From contig JASGMR010000001.1 in assembly GCA_030156385.1 (NCBI GenBank), positions 1 to 64,000 of the forward strand: a stretch of DNA of 64,000 bases. The letters are read 5' to 3'. Source of the DNA: Kosmotogales bacterium. Its GTDB lineage: Bacteria; Thermotogota; Thermotogae; Petrotogales; Kosmotogaceae. Positions 37,969 to 44,016 of the stretch are shown piece after piece. The position numbers and the translations under genes are program-made. Under the pieces are notes generated by a model. It was given only the letters and a program-made list of their open reading frames with translations. It did no database searches and was not told the origin of the DNA. The number at the start of each line of letters is the position of its first letter. The stretch's first letter is position 1.

Positions 37969-39294
37969 CTAATAATTTCTAAAATATTTTTCATATTCCC
38001 ATTTTGAAACATTTGTTATATATTCTTCCCATTCTTTTTCCTTGATGTTTATGAATGTTTTATAAATGTGTTCCCCGATTATTTTTCTACAGAATTCCGA
38101 TTTCTTCACATATTTTATTGATTCATTCAAATCTGCGGGTAAGTTTTCTATTGCCATTTCTTCCTTTTGAGAATCATTCAAATGGAAAATATTGACATCT
38201 ATAGGATCTGGTGGAGTTATTTTATTCTTTATTCCTTCCAGCCCTGCAGCCAAAGTTATGGCGAGTGCCAGATATGGATTACAGCTTGGGTCGGGACTTC
38301 TGAACTCAATTCGTGTTTTTTTACCTCTACACGACGGAACCCTTATCATAGCGCTTCTGTTACCCAAAGCCCAGGAGATATTGACGGGGGCCTCATAACC
38401 TGGAATGAGTCGTTTGTAACTGTTTACAGTTGGGTTTGCGAAGGCCGTTATTTCCTTAGCGTGATTGATGATTCCGCCTATGAAATATAAAGCCAGATCA
38501 CTCAGTCCGTGCTTTTTTGTTTCATCACAGAAAGCATTTTGACCATCCTTGTTCAGACTCATATTCAGGTGCATTCCCGAACCGTTTATTTTGGGGAAAA
38601 CTTTGGGCATAAATGAGGCATAGACATTCTCCATTAAAGCCATCGTTTTTACTACCCATTTGAATGTCTGAATATTATCGGCGGTTTTTAAAATATCCGT
38701 ATATCTGAAATCAATTTCGTGTTGAGAAGGCGCAACCTCATGGTGTGCTGCTTCGACTTCAAAACCCATCTTTTCCAGTGCGATGACGATATTTTTTCTT
38801 ATTCTTTCTCCTTTATCAACCGGTAATAAATCGAAATAACCTCCACTGTCCATTAAATCCAGATCACTTTTAACTCCGGAATCACTCTTTTCTACCATAA
38901 AAAATTCCGGTTCCGGTCCTACGAAAGTTTCGAATCCCATATTTGCAGCTTCTTTTATCACTTTTTTGAGTACATATCTCGGATCGCCATCAAAGGGTTT
39001 CATATCAGAATCATAAACATCGCATATGAATCTTGCCGTTCTGACTCCATCGCTTGTCCATGGCAGGATCGTGAATGTTTTTAAATCAGGAATCAGCATC
39101 ATATCTGATTCTTCAATTCTTACAAAACCATCAATGGAAGAGCCATCAAACATCATTCCATCTTTTAAAACTCCTTCTATCTGACTTATTGGAAATTCGA
39201 CATTTTTAGGCATACCGTTAATATCGGTGATTCTTAGTCTTATAAATTTTACAGAGAATTCTTCACATTTTTTGATGATTTCACTAATTTCCAT
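37969..39294 (-). CDS. glnA: Glutamine synthetase, type I
   Basis: GlnA makes glutamine from glutamate, ammonia and ATP. Diagnostic segments are MFDGSSIDGF, the metal-binding GPEPEFF, EVEAAHHEVAPSQHEIDF, the ATP/ammonia-site NGSGMHLN and NPTVNSYKRLIPGYEAPV, and RIEFRSPDPSCNPYLA. The length of 441 residues and the absence of the Tyr-containing NLYDLP adenylylation loop (here ENLPADL) place it in the shorter GSI-alpha type, so regulation by adenylylation is not expected. It is 12 bases downstream of the asparagine synthetase gene and should lie under the same Asn-rich leader. Confidence 0.96.
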   Translation of the reverse strand: MEISEIIKKCEEFSVKFIRLRITDINGMPKNVEFPISQIEGVLKDGMMFDGSSIDGFVRIEESDMMLIPDLKTFTILPWTSDGVRTARFICDVYDSDMKPFDGDPRYVLKKVIKEAANMGFETFVGPEPEFFMVEKSDSGVKSDLDLMDSGGYFDLLPVDKGERIRKNIVIALEKMGFEVEAAHHEVAPSQHEIDFRYTDILKTADNIQTFKWVVKTMALMENVYASFMPKVFPKINGSGMHLNMSLNKDGQNAFCDETKKHGLSDLALYFIGGIINHAKEITAFANPTVNSYKRLIPGYEAPVNISWALGNRSAMIRVPSCRGKKTRIEFRSPDPSCNPYLALAITLAAGLEGIKNKITPPDPIDVNIFHLNDSQKEEMAIENLPADLNESIKYVKKSEFCRKIIGEHIYKTFINIKEKEWEEYITNVSKWEYEKYFRNY

Positions 39295-39306: not shown

Positions 39307-40233
39307 TTAAATACATGCTTTGCCGGGAATTTTCGGAAACAGCCTCGTTTTGGATACGTGGTCAAGCCCGCAAATGTATCTTGTTAATCTTTCAACGCCA
39401 AATCCACATCCTGCACATTTTGGTAATTTCCCTTCCTTTGCAAAATCAGAATAAATTGGTAAATCTTCCGGATTGTTTCCTCTCTGTTTCATCCTTTTGA
39501 TTATTGTTTCATATTCAAATTCTCTTTCACCACCGGAGAGAGCTTCACCATAACCATAAGGAAGAATCAAATCCATATCGAGTAATGTTTTATCATCCGA
39601 AGAAAGTCTATCATAAAATTCTCTTTTTTCAAGAGGTATATCTATAAGCCAGAAAGGTTCGGTAGATTTTTTGGAGATTATGGATTCGAAATCTTCTCCA
39701 TATTCCTTCAATCCTTCAAGATATTTCACCTTCGGGAATCCCTTTTTTGGTATTTTTACATCGCTCCCGATTTTCTTCAATTCATCCGCACATTCTTCTT
39801 TTATTTTTGATATTGTATAGATGAATAATTTTTCGATTATTTCCATAATATCTTCACGGGTTGCGCCCTTTACTTCAAGATCCACCTGAGTAAATTCATA
39901 AAGATGCACTCCACTCCCCATTTTTTCAGATGTTTCCAATCTGACGTTGGGAGAAACTATGAATATTTTATCGAAAGAATTGAGTGCAATCTGTTTGTGA
40001 AAAATCATGGACTGGGTGATGGAAAATTTTGTTCCATAGTAATCGAATGATGCATTCACGACTTCGTGGTTCAATGGATCGGTTAAAGGGGAAATCATAG
40101 TTGGTAATAATTCTATGAATCCTTCACTTCTCAGATAACTTTCCGCGTACTGAATAACCTTCGCCTTAATCTTTGTTGCCGTTTGAACCTTTGGATCTGT
40201 AAGATGACCTAGAACTTCCTGAAATTTTGTCAT
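39307..40233 (-). CDS. AsnRS-like asparagine synthetase (AS-AR type)
   Basis: The 308-residue protein is a free-standing class II aminoacyl-tRNA synthetase catalytic core related to AspRS/AsnRS, without the N-terminal anticodon-binding domain. Motif 2 can be seen as IVSPNVRLE...HLYEFTQVDLEV and motif 3 as GCGFGVERLTRYICGL, with RLFPKIPG at the end. LLPTMISPLTDPLNHEV resembles the AsnRS active-site entrance. Archaeal proteins of this type make asparagine from aspartate and ammonia with ATP. Pairing with glnA and the poly-Asn leader upstream both support that role. GGGAGG precedes the ATG. A tRNA-charging role is unlikely without the anticodon domain. Confidence 0.85.
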   Translation of the reverse strand: MTKFQEVLGHLTDPKVQTATKIKAKVIQYAESYLRSEGFIELLPTMISPLTDPLNHEVVNASFDYYGTKFSITQSMIFHKQIALNSFDKIFIVSPNVRLETSEKMGSGVHLYEFTQVDLEVKGATREDIMEIIEKLFIYTISKIKEECADELKKIGSDVKIPKKGFPKVKYLEGLKEYGEDFESIISKKSTEPFWLIDIPLEKREFYDRLSSDDKTLLDMDLILPYGYGEALSGGEREFEYETIIKRMKQRGNNPEDLPIYSDFAKEGKLPKCAGCGFGVERLTRYICGLDHVSKTRLFPKIPGKACI

Positions 40234-40279: not shown

Positions 40280-40311
40280 AAAAAAAGGCCGGTGATTTCA
40301 CCGGCCTTTTT
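40280..40311 (-). terminator. Leader terminator (attenuator) upstream of the asparagine synthetase gene
   Basis: On the minus strand, AAAAAGGCCGGTG and CACCGGCCTTTTT form a stem of 13 base pairs with an AAAT loop, ending in a run of seven T residues. It lies 12 bases past the leader stop codon and about 46 bases before the synthetase start. Its 5' arm (GGCCGGT, 40306-40300) is also the target of a competing hairpin. Confidence 0.92.
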
Positions 40312-40345
40312 CGTAAAGAATTTTTACACGAAAAAAATGACCGGT
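40300..40345 (-). promoter_or_regulatory. Predicted antiterminator hairpin
   Basis: The leader segment ACCGGTC (40345-40339, inside codons 23-25 of the leader ORF) can pair over seven positions, one of them a G-T wobble, with GGCCGGT (40306-40300). Pairing continues with five A-T pairs, TTTTT (40337-40333) with AAAAA (40311-40307), and with GTAAA/TTTAC closer to the loop. This structure and the terminator use the same GGCCGGT and so exclude each other. Confidence 0.75.
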
Positions 40346-40413
40346 ATTGGCCAATTATTATTGTTATTATTATTGTTGTTTAAAAATAAATCGTTGAACG
40401 GACAGTTTTTCAT
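40324..40413 (-). CDS. Asn-rich leader peptide (29 aa, nine consecutive Asn codons)
   Basis: A small ORF reads MKNCPFNDLFL, then nine Asn codons (AAC AAC AAT AAT AAT AAC AAT AAT AAT), then WPIPVIFFV and TAA. Eleven of 29 residues are Asn. AAAGGAG lies ten bases upstream of the ATG and a near-consensus promoter lies upstream of that. A strong terminator follows directly, then the genes for asparagine synthetase and glutamine synthetase. This is the architecture of trp- and his-type leader peptides, with Asn as the sensed amino acid: slow reading of the Asn run leaves the antiterminator segment free, while a ribosome that reaches the stop codon covers it. The peptide itself probably has no further function. 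Confidence 0.88.
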   Translation of the reverse strand: MKNCPFNDLFLNNNNNNNNNWPIPVIFFV

Positions 40414-40435
40414 TACGTAAAATCTCCTTTGAGTT

Positions 40436-40464
40436 ATAATATCATATTATCAGTGATTATGCAA
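40436..40464 (-). promoter_or_regulatory. Promoter of the asn leader-asparagine synthetase-glnA operon
   Basis: On the minus strand, TTGCAT (40464-40459) and TATTAT (40441-40436) are separated by exactly 17 bases. The ribosome site of the leader peptide follows within about 15 bases. Confidence 0.75.
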
Positions 40465-40589: not shown

Positions 40590-41726
40590 ATGAAATTATA
40601 TAAAAATGCTTATTTGTTCAAAAATGATCAATTTGTTAAGAGAGATTTTTTAATCGATGAAGGCAAATTTTTAAAAATTGGTGAAGTGATAGAAAAAAAC
40701 GATAACGATGAAGTTATCGATTTAAGTGGAAAATACGTATATCCGGGACTCATGGATGCCCATACTCATGTGGGTATTTTTCAGGAAAAGGCGGGGAATT
40801 TTGCAGGAGATGATGTTAATGAGTCCACTTCATCTTCAACCGCTGATTGTAGGGCGATGGATGCAATCAATCCCTTTGATCCGGGTGTCGTTGAAGCGAA
40901 AAATAATGGAGTAACCACCGTTTGTGTTTTACCTGGATCCGGAAACGTTATCGGAGGAGAAGGGGTGGTTTTCAAAACCAACGTGAAGAACGTTTATAAA
41001 GAAAGGGTAAAGACTCCCAAAAGGATAATAAAATTGGCTTTCGGATGGAGTCCTACAATCATTCCGAGAATGCAAAAAAGAAAACCCCTTACCAGACTGG
41101 CGGTTTCAGCTATTTTAAGGGAGAATCTGGAAAAAGCGAAAAATTATATTCATAAAGAGGAAAAAGATTACGATCTTTCCCTCGAAAACTTATCGTTGCT
41201 GTTGAAAAATGAGGCGATTGCAAGGATTCATGTTGCAAATCTTGAGGACATTGAAACCATTGTCAGAATAATGAAAGAATATAAAATCGATTATGTTTTG
41301 GATCATGCTACGGCATTGCATACGAATACCGAATTTGCAAAATCGTTGAACGTACCGGTGATTTTAGGCCCGTTAAATGTAGCCGGGAAAGCTTTTCAGA
41401 CCTGGCATCTATCGTTCAATTCCGTTAAGGATCTCTATGATGTCGGTATCGATGTGTCGATAATGACCGATGCGCCCGTTATACCCCTGAAATTGATCCG
41501 TCTTCAAATGTTTTTTATAGACAGGTTGAAAATAAAAAGATCGGAAATATTGAAAATGTTTACACTGAACCCCGCAAAAGTTCTTGGTTTACAGGACAGG
41601 TTGGGAAGTGTTGACGAGGGAAAGGATGCGGATTTTATTCTAATGGACGGAGATATTTTTGATTATAGAAGTAAAGTTTTAAAGACATATATAAATGGAA
41701 TTCATGTTGGTGGTGAAGAGATATGA
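40590..41726 (+). CDS. Amidohydrolase paralog 1 (imidazolonepropionase-related), altered metal site
   Basis: This 378-residue protein belongs to the amidohydrolase superfamily, COG1228-like. The N-terminal metal motif MDAHTHVG is present, as are LDHAT and the late Asp in IMTDAPVIPL, and the C-terminal KVLGLQDRLGSVDEGKDADF is typical. Compared with its two neighbours it departs at two points: the central IH-x-H motif reads RIHVANLEDI, so the second His is Ala, and the DHP motif is DAP. It may have different metal content, altered substrate or no activity. GGTGGAGGAGG precedes the start, and the stop overlaps paralog 2 as ATGA. Confidence 0.85.
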   Translation: MKLYKNAYLFKNDQFVKRDFLIDEGKFLKIGEVIEKNDNDEVIDLSGKYVYPGLMDAHTHVGIFQEKAGNFAGDDVNESTSSSTADCRAMDAINPFDPGVVEAKNNGVTTVCVLPGSGNVIGGEGVVFKTNVKNVYKERVKTPKRIIKLAFGWSPTIIPRMQKRKPLTRLAVSAILRENLEKAKNYIHKEEKDYDLSLENLSLLLKNEAIARIHVANLEDIETIVRIMKEYKIDYVLDHATALHTNTEFAKSLNVPVILGPLNVAGKAFQTWHLSFNSVKDLYDVGIDVSIMTDAPVIPLKLIRLQMFFIDRLKIKRSEILKMFTLNPAKVLGLQDRLGSVDEGKDADFILMDGDIFDYRSKVLKTYINGIHVGGEEI

Positions 41727-42871
41727 AAAAAATAATTAAGAAGGGAAAGATTTTTCCCGTTACCGGTGAAAGTTTTATCGGAGACATTTTAATTGAAGGA
41801 GATAGAATTATCTCCATTGATGAAAATATAGACTGTAAGGATGCCGAGATAATAGATGCTGAAAATTTGTTCGTTTTCCCGGGTCTCGTTGAATCGCATT
41901 GTCATATAGGAGTACACAGAGAAAAAACCAATCAATATTCAGACAATGATACGAATGAATTCACTCAACCGGTATCCGTGGATTCCTTTGCAATAGATGC
42001 CATATATCCCTTTGATCATGGATTTAAAGAGGCATTGAGCACGGGGGTGACGACGGTTAATGTCTTCCCGGGTAGTGCCAATCCCTTTGGTGGGATAGGA
42101 ACAACTTTAAAAACAGACATGAATGTTCCATTTGAAGACAGAATCATTCTCAAAAATTCTTCTCTGAAGATGGCTCTGGGAGAAAATCCAAAGAGAACTC
42201 ATACGAAGGAAATTATGACGAGAATGGGTACGGCAGCCATTATAAGAAGAACTTTTAATGAAGCGATCAATTACAGAAATAAAAAAGACAGGGAATATAA
42301 TCAAAAAAATGAAATTCTTTTAAAAGTATTGAATAAAGAATTACCGGTCCATGCCCATGCCCATACGGCCGAGGATATGCTGACTATTATCAGTATAGCA
42401 GAAGAGTTCGATTTTGAATTATTTTTAGAGCATGCGACAGAAAGTCATTTGATTGCGGACGTGATGAAGGAGAAAAGAATAAAACTCGCTATCGGCCCGA
42501 TGTTCACTTCAAAATATAAAATTGAAGTGAATAACAGAACACTGAAAACACCTTCTATTTTGTACGAAAATGGAATTGACGATTTCGGCATAATCACCGA
42601 TCATCCTGTGATCCCAATAATGAATTTACCCGTTGAAGCTTCCATGGCTATCCATTATGGTCTGGATCAAGATGTCGCGCTTAAGGCCATAACTATAAAT
42701 CCGGCCAGAAATTTAAAGATTTCTGATAGAATTGGGAGTATCGATGTAGGTAAAGATGCCGATTTGATAATAACCGATAAACATATTCTTGACCCCACTC
42801 ATAGAGTTATTAAAACTTTTGTTTCGGGGGAACTGGCATATTCAATGAATGAGGAGAGGTTGTTTGTATGA
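41723..42871 (+). CDS. Amidohydrolase paralog 2 (imidazolonepropionase-related)
   Basis: The 382-residue paralog keeps the complete set of superfamily motifs: VESHCHIG, the central VHAHAHTAED, LEHATESH and the late IITDHPVIPI. The C-terminal RIGSIDVGKDADLII strand closes the composite beta-sandwich. Shared text with paralogs 1 and 3, such as GENPKR, TTVNVFPGSANPFGG and NPARNLKISDR, shows they arose by tandem duplication. Related enzymes open cyclic amides or cleave Xaa-dipeptides; the true substrate cannot be read from sequence. It overlaps both neighbours by four bases. Confidence 0.87.
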   Translation: MKKIIKKGKIFPVTGESFIGDILIEGDRIISIDENIDCKDAEIIDAENLFVFPGLVESHCHIGVHREKTNQYSDNDTNEFTQPVSVDSFAIDAIYPFDHGFKEALSTGVTTVNVFPGSANPFGGIGTTLKTDMNVPFEDRIILKNSSLKMALGENPKRTHTKEIMTRMGTAAIIRRTFNEAINYRNKKDREYNQKNEILLKVLNKELPVHAHAHTAEDMLTIISIAEEFDFELFLEHATESHLIADVMKEKRIKLAIGPMFTSKYKIEVNNRTLKTPSILYENGIDDFGIITDHPVIPIMNLPVEASMAIHYGLDQDVALKAITINPARNLKISDRIGSIDVGKDADLIITDKHILDPTHRVIKTFVSGELAYSMNEERLFV

Positions 42872-44016
42872 AATATTTGATTAAAAATGTAGAAATTGAT
42901 CCGGTTGTTAAAGAAAAAATAACGGGAGATGTATTGATAGATAACGGCATAATAAAGAAGATTGACGATAACATAGTTGAAAAAGTTGATGAGGTTATCG
43001 ATGGAAAAAAGGCTCTACTGCTTCCCGGGTTTATAGATGCGCATTCGCATATCGGTCTCAATCCTGAAGGGTATGGTTTTGAATATGACGATACGAATGA
43101 ATCGAGCGAGCCTAATACTGCCGATGTGAGAGCGGTGGATGGTTTTACAACGAGTGATAAATCCATCAAGGAGGGTGCTAGAGGCGGAGTGCTCATTTAC
43201 TGTGTTTTACCTGGGAGTTCAAACCCTATCGGTGGTCTGGGATTTATTGCTAAATATTCGAAATCGAATTTGGTGAGTGATTTTATTTTGAGATATGATA
43301 GCTGTATTAAAATGGCAACGGGAGAAAATCCAAAGAGGTGTTTTTCAGCGAAAGATAAATCTCCCAGTACCAGAATGGGTATAGCTTCAATAATCAGGAA
43401 TTATCTTTTTGATGGTAAAAATTATATTGAAAAAAAGAAAAAAAGCCAGAAAGAAAACAAAGTGTTTACGGAATATGATAATAAAATGGAAATCGCTCAA
43501 AAAATTTTGGAAAGAAAATTACCGGTCAGAATTCACTGTCACAGGGCCGAAGATATATTGTTTGCCATCAGACTGAAAGAGGAATTTGGTATTCGGGTTT
43601 CCATTGAACATTGTACCGATTTGATCAAAGTTCAGGATGAAGTGAAGAAATCGAATGTACCCGTGATGTTGGGTCCGGTGATGTCAAGCAGATCAAAAGT
43701 TGAGCTGATGGATATGACATATCTTTCTTATAAAACGGCTATAGATAGGGAAATTCCTTTTTCATGCATAAGCGATCATCCCGTTTTTCCGGTAGAAACT
43801 CTGAGACTTCAAGCGGGAATGGCCATTAATTACGGTGCCGATGAAAGAGAAATGCTGAAATCACTGACTATTTATCCCGCAAGAATTTTGGGCATTTCTG
43901 AGGAGTACGGTTCAATCGAGATCGGAAAAAAGGATAATTTATGTCTCTGGAATGGCAGTCCTTTCGATTCAAGATCAAAGGTGGTGTGGAATAATATAGA
44001 CGGTTTTATAAATTAA
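42868..44016 (+). CDS. Amidohydrolase paralog 3 (imidazolonepropionase-related)
   Basis: This third 382-residue paralog has IDAHSHIG, the central VRIHCHRAED, IEHCTD and SDHPVFPV, so the metal ligands look intact. YCVLPGSSNPIGG and ATGENPKRCFS match the other two. A Lys-rich insertion (EKKKKSQKEN) precedes the central His motif. It ends 15 bases before an extracellular solute-binding protein gene, so the enzymes may act on a compound captured by that protein, which is an inference. Confidence 0.87.
   Translation: MKYLIKNVEIDPVVKEKITGDVLIDNGIIKKIDDNIVEKVDEVIDGKKALLLPGFIDAHSHIGLNPEGYGFEYDDTNESSEPNTADVRAVDGFTTSDKSIKEGARGGVLIYCVLPGSSNPIGGLGFIAKYSKSNLVSDFILRYDSCIKMATGENPKRCFSAKDKSPSTRMGIASIIRNYLFDGKNYIEKKKKSQKENKVFTEYDNKMEIAQKILERKLPVRIHCHRAEDILFAIRLKEEFGIRVSIEHCTDLIKVQDEVKKSNVPVMLGPVMSSRSKVELMDMTYLSYKTAIDREIPFSCISDHPVFPVETLRLQAGMAINYGADEREMLKSLTIYPARILGISEEYGSIEIGKKDNLCLWNGSPFDSRSKVVWNNIDGFIN

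Follow-up and report, generated by a model that had tools for sequence, protein, structure and literature searches.

A predicted asparagine-specific leader-peptide attenuator upstream of the archaeal-type asparagine synthetase gene of Thermotogota

The window analysed here is the whole stretch of 64 kb taken from a Kosmotogales genome. On its minus strand lies an asparagine synthetase gene with glnA starting 12 bp after it, and the two genes are preceded by a short leader region, in which the following elements were identified (listed from glnA back to the promoter).

37969-39294, minus strand: glnA, type I glutamine synthetase, 441 aa (TIGR00653, 565.9 bits)
39307-40233, minus strand: asparagine synthetase gene (AS-AR, AsnRS-related; hereafter asnA), 308 aa (NF005054 and PDB matches)
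40250-40245, minus strand: GGGAGG, ribosome-binding site of the synthetase gene (from sequence)
40280-40312, minus strand: 3:4 intrinsic terminator with a 14-bp stem, a 4-nt loop and a T7 tract (folding; covariation)
40300-40315, minus strand: region 3, the common arm, which is both the 3' arm of the antiterminator and the 5' arm of the terminator (folding; covariation)
40327-40345, minus strand: region 2, the 5' arm of the antiterminator, ACCGGTC plus TTTTTTCGT (folding; 2:3 covariation)
40338-40353, minus strand: 1:2 hairpin TGGCC(AATACC)GGTCA, 5 bp, adjoining the Asn run and overlapping region 2 (folding; covaries in relatives)
40354-40380, minus strand: control codons, nine tandem Asn (3 AAC, 6 AAT) (from sequence)
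40324-40413, minus strand: leader ORF of 29 codons, MKNCPFNDLFLNNNNNNNNNWPIPVIFFV, with its ATG at 40413 and its stop codon at 40326-40324 (from sequence; orthologous Asn-rich ORFs in 47/47 readable genomes)
40424-40430, minus strand: AAAGGAG, Shine-Dalgarno sequence of the leader ORF, ten bases 5' of the ATG (from sequence)
40436-40441, minus strand: -10 hexamer TATTAT, extended by TGA at 40444-40442 (from sequence)
40459-40464, minus strand: -35-like hexamer TTGCAT, 3/6 matches to TTGACA (from sequence)

The first-pass annotation had proposed a promoter, a Shine-Dalgarno sequence and a leader ORF carrying nine consecutive Asn codons, and the last two were confirmed base by base. The promoter is also present where it had been placed, with 17 nt between the two hexamers and an extended -10 element reading TGATATTAT. 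However, its -35 hexamer is weak, and the promoter at 40464-40436 was therefore absent from the list produced by a consensus scan; transcription from it is inferred, as is translation of the leader ORF. Three tandem amidohydrolase-family genes (378, 382 and 382 aa; plus strand, 40590-44016) are divergent from the leader.

The identity of the two downstream genes, as originally annotated, was supported by the profile and structure matches. The synthetase scored 394 bits with NF005054 (cut-off 309), its only Pfam match was PF00152, and its best PDB matches were 1nnh and 3p8t, the archaeal asparagine synthetase A. It has the AsnRS-like catalytic domain without the anticodon-binding domain, and thus meets the criterion for AS-AR membership. 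The host genome encodes an AsnRS (C4:17506-18867, 618 bits) and no AsnB was found in it above the cut-off, an uncertain absence given that the assembly is 91% complete; free Asn should therefore set the charging of tRNA-Asn. Short leader ORFs have been proposed to boost translation of the following gene by re-initiation in many bacteria (PMC4833913), and the main role of this leader might accordingly be translational coupling to, or re-initiation on, the synthetase gene. However, 90 nt, with an intrinsic terminator among them, separate the stop codon of the leader from the gene, and the synthetase gene has a strong ribosome-binding site of its own, so that we give this explanation almost no weight.

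Folding of the window's leader yielded a terminator of -23.0 kcal/mol (z = -7.0 versus shuffles), spanning 40312-40281, with 7 of its 14 bp being G-C and the T7 tract at 40286-40280; the tract is as annotated, but the stem is one base pair longer than the 13 bp initially reported. When the RNA was cut after region 3, an antiterminator of 16 bp and -17.2 kcal/mol was obtained (z = -4.5 versus shuffles). The best-scoring form retains the previously proposed pairing of ACCGGTC (40345-40339) with GGCCGGT, but continues with TTTTTTCGT paired with ACGAAAAA rather than with the inner GTAAA/TTTAC helix. A third hairpin, TGGCC/GGTCA (40353-40338), had been overlooked and corresponds to the 1:2 hairpin of classical attenuators. 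None of 60 shuffles of the spacer paired with the terminator arm as stably as the real one.

A terminator/antiterminator layout is also what would be expected of a T-box or riboswitch that binds tRNA or another ligand directly, the ORF being incidental, and Asn T-boxes are known in Firmicutes; as is predicted for the device described here, these sense the charging of tRNA-Asn and act through antitermination, but they bind the tRNA directly and have no ORF (PMC2494555). In our searches, no T-box or riboswitch was detected in the window at gathering scores, and a relaxed threshold (E up to 1) returned only sub-gathering matches, none of them to a T-box. A T-box or other Rfam family in the leader was thus rejected for lack of an accepted match. 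Furthermore, the conserved upstream part codes for a peptide rather than forming a folded aptamer, and the same survey contains no T-box in its two Fusobacteria/Thermotogae genomes (PMC2494555). Direct binding of tRNA or a ligand is therefore a reading to which we can attach hardly any credence.

The search for orthologous leaders covered 103 Thermotogota genomes, 47 of which contain an AS-AR synthetase, with a broken copy in one more (G040). Readable leaders were available for 47 genomes: 46 with an intact gene, plus G040; G009 was left out, as its contig ends inside the leader. In G040 (C12:117556-119300, L154), asnA is split into two frames behind an intact Asn leader, reflecting either a frameshift or an assembly error. 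In all 47 readable genomes, from five families, the synthetase gene is preceded by Asn codons, by hairpins and by a T tract, and the Asn-rich leader ORF occurs with three mutually exclusive hairpins (1:2, 2:3 and 3:4). The Asn codons are placed alike in all of them and the competing pairings are present, so that the sequence-based tests set by the first-pass annotation were passed. At two loci (L069 and L061) the leader lies further upstream and more sequence was needed to reach it. The longest Asn run per leader ranges from 2 to 9 codons; some Mesotoga-like genomes have DNN, G016 has NNNDN, and G017 has isolated Asn codons interleaved with Asp (DNDN). The paired sequences vary by family, with types GGCCGGT/GGCCGAT in f1, f7 and f11, GCGTCGG in f2 and GAGCCGGC in G018. 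An SD-like motif was found in 43/46 leaders, and the promoters of most relatives are stronger than that of the window, nine having a perfect TTGACA/TATAAT pair.

No Asn run and no terminator were found within 400 bp upstream of 18 archaeal homologues of the synthetase (40-54% identical, mostly from Thermoplasmata). Since the gene is archaeal in type and its archaeal homologues lack the device, the simple reading is that the attenuator may have been added in the bacterial lineage, an inference from sequence comparison made without a tree.

Covariation was assessed from pair counts on two alignments (f2, and f1/f7/f11) and compared with shuffles. In f2, the 2:3 helix was 91% paired with 20 double-change cells (shuffles, 7) and the terminator 96% paired with 24 (shuffles, 7); when these helices were slid by 1-3 columns, only 21-52% remained paired. 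In the f1/f7/f11 alignment, the terminator was 97% paired with 13 double-change cells (shuffles, 5) and the 1:2 helix 82% paired with 20 (shuffles, 6). None of 500 shuffles reached the covariation score of any of these four helices. The f1/f7/f11 2:3 helix was 92% paired and showed modest covariation (4 double changes versus 1.7; 13/500 shuffles reach the score), and the covariation of the 1:2 hairpin was seen in f1/f7/f11, the f2 members varying too little there. Compensatory changes, which the first-pass annotation had named as support for its two hairpins, were thus found in the terminator, the antiterminator and the 1:2 hairpin.

Asn-codon runs are not enriched in the host genome (16 sites, the same number as in the reversed control). 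A single run therefore carries little weight, and the leader might be no more than a short transcript with a constitutive terminator and an AT-rich low-complexity ORF brought together by chance. This is contradicted by the presence of the device in 47/47 genomes, the three covarying hairpins and the Asn run fixed beside region 1, and by the lack of an equivalent in the archaeal homologues. In the host genome, the asnA leader is the one short open frame that both contains a run of at least five Asn codons and has a terminator after it. Given the z scores, the spacer shuffles, this unique combination of run and terminator, and conservation wherever it could be checked, we consider a chance origin scarcely tenable. 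A second Asn leader was not found in the host genome, where every other run of at least five Asn codons either is part of a long frame or has no terminator after it, and a run-plus-terminator scan revealed no further leader-type attenuators in the 64-kb window; statements on the whole host genome are based on pattern and model searches.

The geometry of a ribosome on the leader was evaluated by folding 46 leaders (the second copy in G023 was included; G017 and G040 were left out), the 3' edge of the footprint being placed 13 nt past the first nucleotide of the codon in the A site. With the ribosome held at the first Asn codon, all 46 leaders formed at least 6 antiterminator pairs. With the ribosome at the stop codon, at least 7 terminator pairs were formed in 46/46 leaders and no more than 3 antiterminator pairs persisted in 37/46; more than 3 remained in the other nine, the case of G042 being an artefact of the Asn run chosen. 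The geometry originally proposed for the window, in which region 2 is free while the ribosome stalls on the control codons and covered once it is at the stop codon, was borne out by this footprint folding for a stall at the first Asn codon. When the last Asn codon occupied the A site, 11/46 leaders kept fewer than 6 antiterminator pairs. Pairing of the spacer with the terminator arm had a mean of -22.2 kcal/mol for the real leaders versus -13.2 kcal/mol for shuffled ones, and for 36/46 spacers at most 1 of 60 shuffles was as stable. There is also an apparent trend, without statistics, for leaders with two Asn codons beside region 1 to have the strongest 1:2 hairpins, as expected if the stalled ribosome itself has to open this hairpin. 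It remains doubtful whether the two-Asn, Asp-preceded runs of several Mesotoga-like genomes are sensitive to Asn, and Asp may contribute to their response.

These observations suggest the following mechanism. RNA polymerase would start just 3' of the -10 hexamer (40441-40436), trailed by a ribosome on the leader ORF. With plentiful Asn-tRNA, the ribosome would pass the nine Asn codons and reach the stop codon (40326-40324), where its footprint would cover region 2, leaving region 3 to pair with region 4, and transcription would end at the T7 tract near 40280. With scarce Asn-tRNA, the ribosome would wait in the Asn run, and the free region 2 would pair with the emerging region 3 (16 bp); the terminator could not then form and asnA-glnA would be transcribed. 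In the absence of translation, the weak 1:2 hairpin (5 bp) would be expected to compete with the 2:3 pairing. Stalling of the ribosome is itself inferred.

The position of the attenuator ahead of asnA-glnA implies one signal for asparagine and glutamine synthesis in the host genome. The annotated joint signal therefore holds for the host operon, but not as a universal rule: glnA follows asnA in only four genomes (G000, G101 and G045, as an operon, and G052, by coordinates), whereas 91 genomes have this glnA, and universal asnA-glnA linkage was rejected, most of the glnA upstream regions examined having no leader.

Covariance models of two leader types, which recovered most asnA leaders, were run against the 103 genomes and revealed Asn leaders at other nitrogen genes. 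Stand-alone glnA genes with an Asn leader of their own and terminator-like hairpins upstream were found in three genomes: G008 (NNNNN; L141), G010 (NNNNNNNN; L140) and G100 (NNN; L142). Both structures were obtained on folding the G008 leader, and the antiterminator on folding that of G100. In G018 (L139, C1:791997-792083), an Asn-codon run lies upstream of a gene for a 570-aa P-loop protein with no Pfam match and weak similarity to PEP carboxykinase, a homologue of which (74-76% identical) follows asnA in G019-G021.

Five genomes of the f2/g11 group (G046-G050; L146-L149 and L157) have an Asn attenuator between gltD and amtB-glnK, and the operon glnA-gltB-gltD-[attenuator]-amtB-glnK was mapped in G048 (L245:579-9950). 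The GltD of these genomes ends in EYLISSNNNNNKQRRLKTL, so that the tail of the full-length enzyme is encoded by the Asn control codons; the enzyme runs 12 residues past its match to 7mfm, the closest solved glutamate synthase small chain. These codons are followed by hairpins resembling those of asnA in the same genomes (where the asnA leader ends in NNNNNKQRR), and the gltD-amtB junction folds into the 2:3 and 3:4 structures. The five junctions are near-identical, so their support comes from folding without covariation, and the other 98 genomes contain nothing closely related to this GltD (at E below 1e-120). We lean, with considerable reservation, towards the view that tRNA-Asn charging is a general nitrogen signal in Thermotogota, read by one mobile module placed before asparagine synthetase, glnA and amtB-glnK and including the NNNNN tail of GltD as a leader.

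Leaders rich in other amino acids also matched the models. A putative leader with KWHHHHSN lies upstream of hisZ-hisG-like genes in G005 (L144, C56:2371-2457) and is probably a His attenuator, judging from the sequence alone. Leaders with SITTTTN upstream of thrS-like genes (L151 in G054 and L153 in G053) are possible Thr attenuators, those with MMMM/MMM upstream of a MetQ-like lipoprotein gene (L156 in G039 and L155 in G040) possible Met-sensing attenuators, and MSVLSFKKVDDDIIAP, with DDD, upstream of an aspartate--tRNA(Asn) ligase-type gene (L152, G053:C222:34305-34373), a possible Asp-sensing one. Since these His, Thr, Met and Asp leaders match the same models, leader-peptide attenuation seems to be common in Thermotogota.

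The attenuator might nevertheless respond to another cue, such as slowing on the Asn run itself or generally slow translation, and so report growth or temperature stress; in the absence of expression data this remains possible, and several leaders have only 2-3 Asn codons. However, the residue is always Asn and the gene always asparagine synthetase, AAC and AAT are mixed across the leaders (49:169), pointing to selection at the level of the amino acid, and in the phylum's other leaders the repeated residue fits the gene that follows (His with hisZ/hisG, Thr with thrS, Met with metQ, Asp with an AspRS-like gene). We therefore regard such a cue as improbable, although less so than the other alternatives, and conclude with high confidence that the leader is an Asn-specific, ribosome-mediated attenuator of the trp/his type, its response to Asn in cells being inferred in the absence of expression data. 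On the same footing, the switch very probably turns on the asparagine and glutamine genes only at Asn shortage.

As in the trp, his, leu, thr, phe and ilv attenuators of Proteobacteria, there is a short leader, here predicted to be translated, whose tandem codons specify the product amino acid, a set of 1:2, 2:3 and 3:4 hairpins, a stop codon at which a terminating ribosome would mask region 2, and an intrinsic terminator before the first gene. Unlike them, the Thermotogota device has Asn as its control amino acid and an archaeal-type synthetase as its gene, glnA and, in relatives, amtB-glnK are under the same signal, and in one genus the control codons sit in the tail of a full-length gene. 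Leaders with the same logic have been found comparatively in Actinobacteria and Firmicutes, as has the cysS uORF of Rhodobacterales (PMC1262725, PMC2965389 and PMC8632094); according to PMC2965389, only Proteobacteria and Actinobacteria had been known to possess leader-peptide systems before its Firmicutes His leader. Text searches of two of these papers (PMC2965389 and PMC8632094) revealed no Asn case, and no Asn leader-peptide attenuator was found in the full-text literature searched, which did not cover Lopatovskaya et al. 2010, a work that may hold Thermotogae cases. The mechanism is thus known, and its Asn-specific member is new within the literature searched.

The gltD-tail form suggests that the leader of an attenuator need not be a separate short peptide and that the end of an enzyme can carry the control codons; searches restricted to 5' leaders would therefore miss such switches inside operons. 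If our interpretation is correct, asparagine would join the amino acids to which leader-peptide attenuators respond, and the mechanism would be conserved throughout a phylum that yielded no T-boxes in a small published survey (PMC2494555). Asn-tRNA would then be a concrete nitrogen signal for glutamine synthetase and ammonium uptake.
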